From Actinomycetes bacterium (GTDB lineage Bacteria; Actinomycetota; Thermoleophilia; RBG-16-64-13), in the NCBI GenBank assembly GCA_024637035.1, contig JAGXFW010000033.1:1-64000 (forward strand): a stretch of DNA of 64,000 nt, read 5' to 3'. The position numbers and the translations under genes were made by a program. Below the pieces are notes generated by a model. The model searched no databases and was not told where the DNA came from. It saw only the letters and a program-made list of their open reading frames with translations. Of this stretch, positions 3,902 through 59,221 are shown in pieces. Each line of letters begins with the position of its first letter. The first letter of the stretch is position 1.

Positions 3902-4432
3902 TTGGATCTTTCGCGACTCGACCACTTGGACGCGGAGGGGCTCCGCGAATACATAGAGTTCCTGCTGTGGCACTACAGGGTGATGGACTCGTTCTGGTTC
4001 ATCAAGGTGGCGGAGCGCTACGGTCAACCCGTCGCCGAGGCGGTCAACGAAGAGGTGTGGGGCCGCATCTCGGGCATGGCGGCCGGCGACCTCGTCCGGC
4101 GGTTCCGCATCGAGAAGACGGGGCTCGCCGGTTTTGCCGAAGCCCTGCGTCTCTTCCCCTGGACGATCCTCGTGGGCTACGAGATCGAGGAGACCGACGA
4201 CGAGATCACCGTGACGGTGCCGGTCTGCGTGACCCAGGAAGCCAGACGCAAGCGCGGTCTGGGCGAGTACGCCTGCCGCGACATGCACAGGCTCGAGTTC
4301 GAGGGACTCGCTCAGGCCGTAGATCCTCGCATCCTGGTGCACTGCGACGTCGCCCCTCCAGACGACCGCCCGCCCGGGCTTGACTGCCGTTGGCGCTTCA
4401 CCCTCTCACCGGCAGAGGAAGCATCGGAGTAG
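3902..4432 (+). CDS. DUF6125-like protein of unknown function
   Basis: This 176-residue soluble protein starts at a TTG with GAGGAGG about 12 bases upstream. The C-terminal part has a CVTQEARRKRGLGEYAC segment, a HCDVAPPDDRP segment and a final CRWRFTL motif. I associate this Cys-containing pattern with DUF6125, a family of anaerobic bacteria and archaea without known function. The name is from memory of the motif and was not searched. The gene lies 73 bases behind the flavodoxin gene and may share its transcript. Confidence 0.6.
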   Translation: MDLSRLDHLDAEGLREYIEFLLWHYRVMDSFWFIKVAERYGQPVAEAVNEEVWGRISGMAAGDLVRRFRIEKTGLAGFAEALRLFPWTILVGYEIEETDDEITVTVPVCVTQEARRKRGLGEYACRDMHRLEFEGLAQAVDPRILVHCDVAPPDDRPPGLDCRWRFTLSPAEEASE

Positions 4433-4524: not shown

Positions 4525-4554
4525 TTGACAGGCCCGCGAATAACCGATAAAGAT
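4525..4554 (+). promoter_or_regulatory. Promoter of the attenuator leader
   Basis: TTGACA (4525-4530) is followed after 17 bases by TAAAGA (4548-4553). This predicts a transcript start near 4560, just before the folded leader RNA. It is one of the best sigma-70-type promoters in the window. Confidence 0.75.
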
Positions 4555-4557
4555 GGT

Positions 4558-4663
4558 ACTGACTGTCACAAATCAGGGGTCCGGGCACGTTCGGTTGTCC
4601 GGAGGTCGCACGTCAGGTAGTCGGGCCGCTACCTGGAGATAGCTCTCCAGGCAGCGGCTTTTT
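4558..4663 (+). promoter_or_regulatory. Riboswitch-like attenuator leader, class not recognised
   Basis: The leader can form two exclusive structures. A terminator has a 5' arm at 4625-4639 and a 3' arm at 4644-4658, followed by TTTTT. An antiterminator pairs CAGGTAG (4614-4620) with CTACCTG (4629-4635), which uses part of the terminator arm. Upstream, CTGAC (4559-4563) can pair with GTCAG (4612-4616), closing a domain of about 58 nucleotides that contains an eight-pair stem-loop (4580-4602). Closing this stem would occupy the antiterminator and favour termination. I cannot match it to a known riboswitch class. Confidence 0.65.
4625..4663 (+). terminator. Intrinsic terminator of the leader
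   Basis: GCCGCT-A-CCTGGAGA pairs with TCTCCAGG-C-AGCGGC around a TAGC loop and is followed directly by five T. It lies 77 bases before the start of the next gene, so it acts as a conditional terminator if the antiterminator forms. Confidence 0.85.
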
Positions 4664-4739
4664 CGCGTAGTGGCCGGCCACCGCGCCGGGCGGCAACGCG
4701 ACGTGGCAGCAAACGGCAGAACGATGGAAAGGGGAAGAC

Positions 4740-5171
4740 ATGGGACTACTCAGTGGGATTCTCGGCAAGAAGGAGGAAGAGCATCCGCCCCTCGACCCGG
4801 GTAGCGCCGCAGCGACCAGATTGAGCAGCCAAACCAACACCCTGGCTGATCTGCTGAAGCGCGCCAACGATCGACTCGAAGCGATCCCGACCGACCATGG
4901 GCTCTACGTCTATGTGGGTAAGCCGCCGAAAGAGTTCGGCGTTGTCTGGTACAAGAACGGCGAAGAGCACAGCTTCATGTCGGTGATGAAGGAGAAGGGC
5001 CTGAGCGGGGACCAGGTGCAGGACCTCTCCGATGCTCTGAGGGATGTCTACAGCGCCCACATCGACGAGCCTCGCTACTCGTACCCGGTCGGCGGCAAGC
5101 AGGTCGTGGTGACTCCGTCGGAGGCCCTGGCCGTCGATCTCGAAAGAGTCATCGGAGCACTTGACATCTAG
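4740..5171 (+). CDS. Small protein of unknown function controlled by the leader
   Basis: This 143-residue soluble protein starts at an ATG with AAAGGGG eight bases upstream. I do not recognise the family. It begins MGLLSGILGKKEEE, has a helical region near 30-50, and a segment HGLYVYVGKPPKEFGVVWY followed by conserved-looking FMSVMKEKGLS. It has no signal peptide, membrane segment or cysteine cluster. It is the only gene behind the attenuator before a hairpin at 5193, so its level is likely set by whatever the leader senses. Confidence 0.6.
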   Translation: MGLLSGILGKKEEEHPPLDPGSAAATRLSSQTNTLADLLKRANDRLEAIPTDHGLYVYVGKPPKEFGVVWYKNGEEHSFMSVMKEKGLSGDQVQDLSDALRDVYSAHIDEPRYSYPVGGKQVVVTPSEALAVDLERVIGALDI

Positions 5172-8627: not shown

Positions 8628-10157
8628 CTAGTACCTATCGACATCCACGGCGGGAAGCGTGAAGAAGAAAGATGCGCCGTCGTGGGCGGCGCCGTCGTTC
8701 TCAGCGCCATCCACCCAGATACGACCACCGTGCCGTTCGACGATCTTCTTGCACACGGAGAGGCCTATGCCTGTGCCCGGGTACTCGTCGCGGCCGTGAA
8801 GTCTCTGAAACAGACCGAAGATCCGTTCCGCGTACTGGGGCTCGATCCCGATGCCGTTGTCCCGCACTGCGAACACCCAGAGCGCACCGTCGCGCGTAGC
8901 GGAGACACGCACGCGGGGACGCTCCTCCCCTCGGAACTTGAGGGAGTTCGAGATGAGATTCTGGAACAGTAGGGTGAGCTGCCCCGGGTCCGCCGCCACG
9001 GTGGGTAGCTCCCCGTCCGCCCGCACGTCCCCGCCGGTCTCCTCGATCTTCAGGCGCAGGTTGTCCAAAGCAGCGGCGAGCGCGGTCAGAGACTCTACCG
9101 GCTCCGGCTCCCGCCCGCGCGTGCCCACACGGGACAAGAGCAGCAGGTCCTCGATCATGGCCTGCATCCGTCCGGCCCCGTCGACCGCGAAGCCGATGAA
9201 GTCGTCCGCATCCGCATCCAGCTTCCCCTTGTACCGCCTCTCGAGTATCTGCAGATAGCTCACCACCATGCGCAGGGGCTCCTGCAGATCGTGGGAGGCC
9301 ACGTAGGCGAACTGCTCGAGTTCGGCGTTGGAAGCGGCCAACTCGGCCGTCTGAGCGCGGAGCGTCCCCTCCACTCGGACCCTCCAGGCGACCTGCTCCT
9401 CGAGTTCGTCGCGCGACACGGTGATGTCCCGGAGGTCCGCCGTCATCTGGTCGAACGCCCGCCCCAACTCGCCGACTTCATCCCTGGACGTGAGGCCCAT
9501 GTGGTGATCCAGATCTCCACGACCCACCACGCGCACGCCGTCCTGGAGACGGTGCAGCGGACCGAGGAGTCGCCGGCCCATCAGGACGAAGAGCACCGTC
9601 AGCAGAGCGGCCAGACCGGACACCGCGCCGAACGTGGCGCTGGTGCCGCGTCCCTGCGCCCGTACGAGCATGTCCTGGACGTGACGGTCAAGGCGCACCG
9701 AAGCTACGATCATGTCGTTCAGGGCCACCATGAGCTGGCTCGTCAGCCGCTCCTCCCGAGCCTGGAATGCAGCGGCTTCCACCGTTCCGGACGCCTGGGA
9801 AGCGTCCCGGGCCTCCACGATCCCCTCGAAGAGAGTACCGAGGAGCGCATGGTCCGCCGCTACGCGATCGAGCAACCCCGCCATGTCGGCATCCGAGGAA
9901 GCGATCTCATCGATGAGCTCCCCCTGCGACTCGTGCCGCGCTCTCCACTGCACCCGGGCCCGCTCGCTGCCCCGAGAGACGTACTCGAACGTAACGAGCA
10001 CGAGTTGGGAGTTCGCCACGCGCACCTCGCTGGTGACCACCGAGAGAGCGAGGGCGCGGTCGGTGGCCCGGCTGACCACCAAGAACAAACCCCCCACGGC
10101 CAACACTAGAGCGACCGCCAGCACGCCCCCGAGGGTCAGGATCGAACGGATCTTCAT
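8628..10157 (-). CDS. Membrane-bound sensor histidine kinase
   Basis: This 509-residue kinase has a first membrane segment (about 7-27), an extracytoplasmic helical region of about 135 residues, and a second membrane segment (about 165-185). These are followed by a HAMP domain (PLHRLQDGVRVVGRGDLDHH), a coiled coil, a HisKA domain with FAYVASHDLQEPLRMV, and an HATPase domain with DNGIGI and GTGIGLSVCKKI. The kinase core resembles the phytochrome-type bacterial kinases that work with single-domain receivers. The ATG at 10157 overlaps the stop of the lipoprotein gene (ATGA), so the two are coupled. The apparent longer frame upstream is arginine-rich shadow. Confidence 0.88.
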   Translation of the reverse strand: MKIRSILTLGGVLAVALVLAVGGLFLVVSRATDRALALSVVTSEVRVANSQLVLVTFEYVSRGSERARVQWRARHESQGELIDEIASSDADMAGLLDRVAADHALLGTLFEGIVEARDASQASGTVEAAAFQAREERLTSQLMVALNDMIVASVRLDRHVQDMLVRAQGRGTSATFGAVSGLAALLTVLFVLMGRRLLGPLHRLQDGVRVVGRGDLDHHMGLTSRDEVGELGRAFDQMTADLRDITVSRDELEEQVAWRVRVEGTLRAQTAELAASNAELEQFAYVASHDLQEPLRMVVSYLQILERRYKGKLDADADDFIGFAVDGAGRMQAMIEDLLLLSRVGTRGREPEPVESLTALAAALDNLRLKIEETGGDVRADGELPTVAADPGQLTLLFQNLISNSLKFRGEERPRVRVSATRDGALWVFAVRDNGIGIEPQYAERIFGLFQRLHGRDEYPGTGIGLSVCKKIVERHGGRIWVDGAENDGAAHDGASFFFTLPAVDVDRY

Positions 10158-22354: not shown

Positions 22355-22445
22355 GGAGAGGTGTCCGAGCTGGCTGAAGGAGCACGACTGGAAATCGTGT
22401 AGGCGGGGGTAACCCGTCTCGAGGGTTCGAATCCCTCCCTCTCCG
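22355..22445 (+). tRNA. tRNA-Ser (anticodon GGA)
   Basis: The 91-base gene has acceptor arms GGAGAGG/CCTCTCC, a long variable arm typical of class II tRNAs, the anticodon GGA inside CTGGAAA, and a T-arm GAGGG-TTCGAAT-CCCTC. The CCA end is not encoded. Confidence 0.97.
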
Positions 22446-22523
22446 CCTCGACCCCCTCATACCCCACTCATCGTGAGCCCCCCGATACGCGAGACCCTCC
22501 TCTTGCGACTGCTATACTTCGGC

Positions 22524-22795
22524 GTGACTGTGCTAGGTGGGGAGGTAGCGGTGCCCTGTACCCGCAATCCGCTATAGCGGGGCTGAATTCCCACCCGAGG
22601 AGCGGACCTGTAAGGTCATGCCGCCGTCAAGTGGTGTTGAGGATCAGGTCCCACGCAATGGGAATCCGTGAACCGGGTCAGGACCGGGAGGTAGCAGCCC
22701 TAAGCGGACCCTTCCATGTGCCGTGGGGCAACTTGATCTGAGCCGGCTGACGGAGGGCGCTTGGAGGCTTGTCTTCGACGGTGGGTGCACGGTCG
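22524..22795 (+). ncRNA. ffs: Signal recognition particle RNA, large bacterial form
   Basis: The sequence contains the 5' Alu domain pattern (TGCTAGGTGGGGAGGTAGCG, then TGCCCTGTACCCGCAATCCG), the helix 8 apical tip (GAACCGGGTCAGGACCGG, then AGCAGCCCTAAG) and the 3' end GGTGCACGGT. This is the long Alu-containing SRP RNA of Gram-positive bacteria. It binds Ffh and targets membrane proteins. A TATACT box at 22513-22518 is the likely -10. Ends are estimated from the family pattern and may be off by a few bases. Confidence 0.93.
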
Positions 22796-58918: not shown

Positions 58919-58964
58919 GACTTTGCCATCATCTCCAGGCAGGGCTCCCTCTACTCGGGGAGCC

Positions 58965-59200
58965 TACCAGCTGCTCAGGCAGGTCTTCTGACTCTCGGAT
59001 CGTCGCTCCCCCGCGCCTTCCCATCCTCCTTGCCTCCACTCCCCCCAACTCGGGGAGCGGCGGTGGAAGGACAGTGGCACCTGCGGGCTCACTCCCCGAT
59101 CACAGCGGCGGGACCGTCCGGGTATCGCACCCGGTTCCCTCTTAGCCGCACCCGGTCGCTCCGACTTCGGAGCCACCTCGCGCGGGACCTGGCAACCATG
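58965..59200 (-). promoter_or_regulatory. Cobalamin riboswitch
   Basis: Read on the minus strand, the sequence has the conserved cobalamin-aptamer parts in order: GAGGGAAcCGGGTGCGA, CCCGCCGCTGT, the B12-box GTGCCACTG, GGGAAGG, and CGAGAGTCAGAAGACCTGCC. High adenosylcobalamin should favour the terminator downstream and switch off the operon. The match leaves little doubt about the class. A TPP riboswitch was looked for and is not there. Confidence 0.95.
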
Positions 59201-59221
59201 CTACGAATGCTACGGTCGCTA

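Follow-up and report, generated by a model that had tools for sequence, protein, structure and literature searches.

Leader RNAs of the nhaA-I class are Li+-sensing ON switches (Li+-I) that mostly stand before nhaA (White et al. 2022, PMC9646797), and the motif has been listed from Alpha-, Beta-, Gamma- and Deltaproteobacteria (PMC9646797). Rare variants that bear a terminator sense Na+ (Na+-II); they were found only in Deltaproteobacteria, before genes of unknown function, and the example from Desulfobulbus propionicus shows Na+-dependent readthrough (PMC9646797). The discriminating base in the tested Na+-II switch is C54, a position at which most Li+-I RNAs have U, and with the C54U change the D. 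propionicus switch responded more broadly, namely to Li+, Na+ and NH4+ (PMC9646797). Ion-induced readthrough was obtained in vitro both for the nhaA-I class (PMC9646797) and for the similar Na+-I class (PMC9337991), whose targets include dapB, ablA and eam (PMC9337991).

We analysed a leader in a 64,000-nt stretch of an actinobacterial genome (hereafter the window). The first-pass annotation had described it as a riboswitch of no known class and had proposed a covariance search (Infernal/Rfam), naming a significant match to a known class as the result that would speak against its reading. That search (cmscan, 246 bases) returned RF03057, the nhaA-I family, with 41.6 bits, above the gathering score of 37 (E 2.8e-7), the single match in the whole 3.57-Mb host genome. 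The bounds of the match are identical to those of the 58-nt aptamer proposed from the sequence (Table 1). Its assignment to no known class is refuted by this full-length match above the gathering score, together with the relatives of like architecture described below. Nor is the ligand as obscure as had been thought: tested nhaA-I members bind Li+ or Na+ (PMC9646797), and the ligand of the window RNA is therefore very probably an alkali cation.

Table 1. Elements of the leader and its target gene, followed by neighbouring and other features of the window.
Feature	Position	Strand	Details and evidence
Candidate sigma-70-type promoter	4525..4554	+	TTGACA (4525-4530), 17-nt spacer, TAAAGA(T) (4548-4554); sequence
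nhaA-I (Li+-I/Na+-II type) riboswitch aptamer	4577..4634	+	Rfam RF03057, 41.6 bits, model 1-55/55
Aptamer stem-loop P1	4581..4602	+	4581-4587 with 4596-4602, then conserved AGGU 4603-4606; folds, 15 leaders
Aptamer stem-loop P2 = antiterminator	4614..4635	+	4614-4620 with 4629-4635, conserved loop GUCGGGCCGC (4620-4629); folds, 15 leaders
Intrinsic terminator	4624..4663	+	Stem 4624-4639 with 4644-4659, U-run 4659-4663 (five U); fold z -4.9
Shine-Dalgarno-like AAGGGGA	4729..4735	+	Sequence
Target gene, 143-aa protein	4740..5171	+	ORF, ATG at 4740; homologues behind same RNA in four other genomes
Upstream neighbour, DUF6125 gene	3902..4432		
tRNA-Gly call (ARAGORN)	9746..9835	-	Inside sensor-kinase reading frame; without Rfam support, probably false
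tRNA-Ser, then bacterial large SRP RNA	22355..22792	+	SRP RNA: RF01854, 213 bits
Cobalamin riboswitch	58961..59206	-	RF00174, 95 bits

In sequence and structure the aptamer resembles Li+-I RNAs, scoring above the family cut-off, and it retains the conserved nhaA-I elements: GGGU...AGGU marks the base of P1, and the P2 loop reads GUCGGGCCGC. The proposal of an orphan riboswitch class, with a ligand outside the known classes, could draw on a target gene of unknown function and on the occurrence of the RNA in a phylum that the class description does not name (PMC9646797); a full-length match above a curated cut-off, these conserved elements included, makes it scarcely tenable. The window RNA also shares with the Na+-I class (DUF1646 motif) a similar two-stem layout and a terminator overlapping P2; that osmolyte genes are among the Na+-I targets is a further point of likeness. 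Unlike a true Na+-I RNA, however, it gave no match to RF03071 in the window (E up to 5), and there was none elsewhere in the genome.

How could such an aptamer control transcription? The terminator pairs GGCCGCU-A-CCUGGAGA with UCUCCAGG-C-AGCGGCU and ends in the U-run; it had been called perfect, and it is indeed present, but its stem contains one internal A/C mismatch. The P2 3' arm and a portion of the P2 loop lie within the 5' arm of the terminator. Because bases 4629-4635 are common to both, P2 and the terminator exclude each other, which supports the riboswitch design with exclusive antiterminator and terminator that had been read from the sequence; the antiterminator stem postulated there is the aptamer stem P2. 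The window carries an intrinsic-terminator platform competing with P2, as in the Na+-II variants, whereas most Li+-I members are proposed to use ribosome-site control.

The complete leader folds at -49.3 kcal/mol (z -3.9), where shuffled sequences average -36.6, and none of 200 shuffles was as good; the same count was obtained for the terminator half. Taken by itself, the aptamer is of ordinary stability (z -0.4), and its significance comes from the covariance-model match, not from fold stability. The terminator is far more stable than P2 alone (-28.1 vs -10.3 kcal/mol). Such a difference would suit a fixed terminator or attenuator that senses no ligand and, for example, ends readthrough from the DUF6125 gene, but it also fits, as expected, a switch that stays off unless the aptamer is held. 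We regard a fixed terminator as very improbable, given that distant genomes preserve the aptamer core in front of differing genes and that a promoter-like -35 box sits between the DUF6125 gene and the aptamer.

All parts of the leader noted in the first pass are present between 4525 and 4740, upstream of the 143-aa gene. The promoter had been described as strong. Both boxes can be recognised, and a close relative in the same genus (G001) keeps TTGACA with TAATGAT as its -10, while the -35 in two further genomes (G010 and G014) reads TTGACC. The adjective is nevertheless overstated: the -35 box is perfect, but the -10 box is weaker and departs from consensus, so that a simple consensus promoter scan did not call the promoter.

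The leader precedes a single small gene, and the encoded 143-aa protein is uncharacterised, both as had been noted; it has no Pfam or NCBIfam match. Among 359 genomes of the class, the RNA above cut-off and the 143-aa protein were found in exactly the same four, adjacent in each, although these represent two genera of one family and are not independent cases. A fifth case, from another class of the phylum (G482), combines about 40% protein identity with the same RNA, terminator and gene order. In the genomes searched, no 143-aa gene was seen without the RNA. Invariant positions of the family include M1-G-L, G60-x-PPK, F66-G-V, W70, E75-x-H77 and R112. A weak profile match in another genome (G247; E 0.005) was rejected, being no better than chance in a search of 396 genomes. 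Structure prediction from two sequences was unreliable (pLDDT 53), and a fold search gave no match at E <= 0.001; neither was informative. The order of helices and strands resembled CesT/YbjN-like chaperone folds, but such a fold is not claimed. Searches of PHROGs and of solved structures gave chance-level matches only, and no homologues were found in plasmids or viral contigs. In two relatives (L002 and L003, in G010 and G014), a 56-aa single-helix protein (MDPLLWIV...) is encoded on the same strand after the 143-aa gene, approximately 570-620 nt past the aptamer; it was not seen in the window.

Relatives' leaders were collected by RF03057 searches of the phylum and of the order of G219, which yielded more full-strength matches; a pattern scan of genome contigs found only a near-identical relative. 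Four weak matches below the cut-off (L005, L006, L014 and L015), which have no terminator of the window layout, were set aside, and L034 lies outside the leaders read. In most related leaders the P2-loop GGCCGC, together with the 3' arm of P2, is taken up into a hairpin that as a rule has a short U-run behind it, and in most of them the terminator occupies the same position as in the window; the G461 and G458 leaders that were read showed no clear terminator. MAFFT put P1 and the terminator in the wrong place when 14 leaders were aligned, and pairs were therefore counted with hand-anchored scripts. In a set of 15 leaders, 96% of P1 cells are paired; exchanging arms between leaders lowers this figure to 68%. 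Several P1 pairs have changed on both sides. The proposed check on homologous leaders thus turned up both the same architecture and compensatory changes. For P2, 98% of cells pair, against 91% after swapping, with at least five P2 pairs in each leader; this helix is nearly invariant and by itself weak evidence. Variable terminator pairs, counted in the 13 leaders with a terminator, show only a slight excess (80% vs 72% swapped); the strand shared with P2 is conserved and can hardly vary.

Which genes follow the RNA in Actinomycetota? Members of the 143-aa family do so in five genomes (G000, G001, G010, G014 and G482), and KamA-family radical-SAM aminomutases in five others (G219, G377, G458, G461 and G495). 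The latter resemble lysine/glutamate 2,3-aminomutase, below curated cut-offs, and were assigned by NCBIfam in G219 and G377, by Pfam in G461 and by evident likeness only in G458 and G495; it is possible that they are beta-amino-acid osmolyte enzymes. In one genome (G505) the downstream genes are those of a DapB-like reductase and a cation ATPase. No nhaA gene was found downstream of the RNA among the strong Actinomycetota matches. Three further loci were recorded in the course of this survey: a tandem pair of nhaA-I RNAs upstream of a KamA-family aminomutase gene, outside Proteobacteria (L013/L016, G377:C22:86087-86280); an nhaA-I RNA with a terminator before an ammonium transporter gene (L023, G471:C21:474866-474923); and an nhaA-I RNA that carries a terminator-like hairpin and is followed by the gene of a long protein, apparently exported, whose first 260 residues match nothing in Pfam (L017, G481:C115:630-694).

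What is the likely mechanism? Without ion, polymerase would make the aptamer, strand 4624-4639 would leave P2 to form the terminator, and transcription would stop at about 4663. With enough ion, the P1 base and the P2 loop would form the binding site and lock P2; the terminator could then not form and the 143-aa gene would be transcribed. The ON direction of this scheme is suggested by the homologous switches of D. propionicus and C. acetobutylicum, both of which have been tested. We hold with good confidence, a judgement that covers class and mechanism and leaves aside the identity of the ion, that the leader is an alkali-cation riboswitch of the nhaA-I class acting as an ON switch by termination.

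Which ion would it sense? Judging from the linked genes, Na+ appears moderately probable, and is favoured for three reasons: (i) terminator platforms marked the Na+-sensing variants (PMC9646797); (ii) the RNA-linked genes of the phylum resemble Na+-I riboswitch targets (PMC9337991); and (iii) the two nhaA matches of the host lie elsewhere, neither with an nhaA-I RNA, and NhaA had no match in three of the seven genomes checked (G219, G377 and G482, the last only 73% complete). With Na+-II of D. propionicus the window RNA shares the nhaA-I aptamer, an intrinsic terminator sharing P2, a target of unknown function and a predicted ON switch; it differs in belonging to Actinomycetota, not Deltaproteobacteria. 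The P2 loop carries the class-consensus U, which alone would make the RNA look Li+-I-like or broad, and the position matching D. propionicus C54 may be that U.

Li+ is retained as a less likely ion, of tentative standing. A Li+-I riboswitch proper, in which the 143-aa protein would serve in Li+ tolerance and be switched on by Li+ stress, is doubtful in the same degree: the RF03057 family takes its name from Li+ sensors linked to nhaA (PMC9646797) and the loop U agrees with them, but the strong Actinomycetota matches have no nhaA downstream, the host nhaA genes are unlinked to the RNA, and the terminator-bearing variants are the Na+-sensing ones (PMC9646797). An nhaA association is the commonest in Li+-I, not an obligatory one; the window gene departs from it. 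Less likely again, and in our judgement improbable, is a broad-specificity monovalent sensor that also answers NH4+. The behaviour of the C54U mutant (PMC9646797) and the ammonium transporter locus could be cited in its favour, but that locus is the only one of its kind and no ammonium gene lies beside the window RNA. The best reading appears to be an nhaA-I riboswitch of Na+ type, or less likely of Li+ type, that would switch on a small salt-response protein; a part in the response to salt or osmotic stress is the likeliest role of the 143-aa protein.

The leader is a real riboswitch of a known class and does not represent a novel type of system. Neither its lineage nor its target gene is described for the nhaA-I class in PMC9646797. 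What is new is an nhaA-I switch in an actinobacterium, preceding the same 143-aa protein in every searched genome that has the gene. A rare ion-sensing class is thereby extended to a phylum that its description does not mention, and additional terminator-type members provide material for sorting Li+ from Na+ specificity. On a wider view, which we hold in even balance, Actinomycetota may contain a Na+-sensing nhaA-I branch with terminator platforms, sometimes in tandem, that would control osmolyte enzymes and a new family of small salt-response proteins. The uncharacterised 143-aa family gains its first functional clue, a probable induction by alkali ion, and if the Na+-sensing branch is real, the switch would be the only recognised clue to that new salt-response family.
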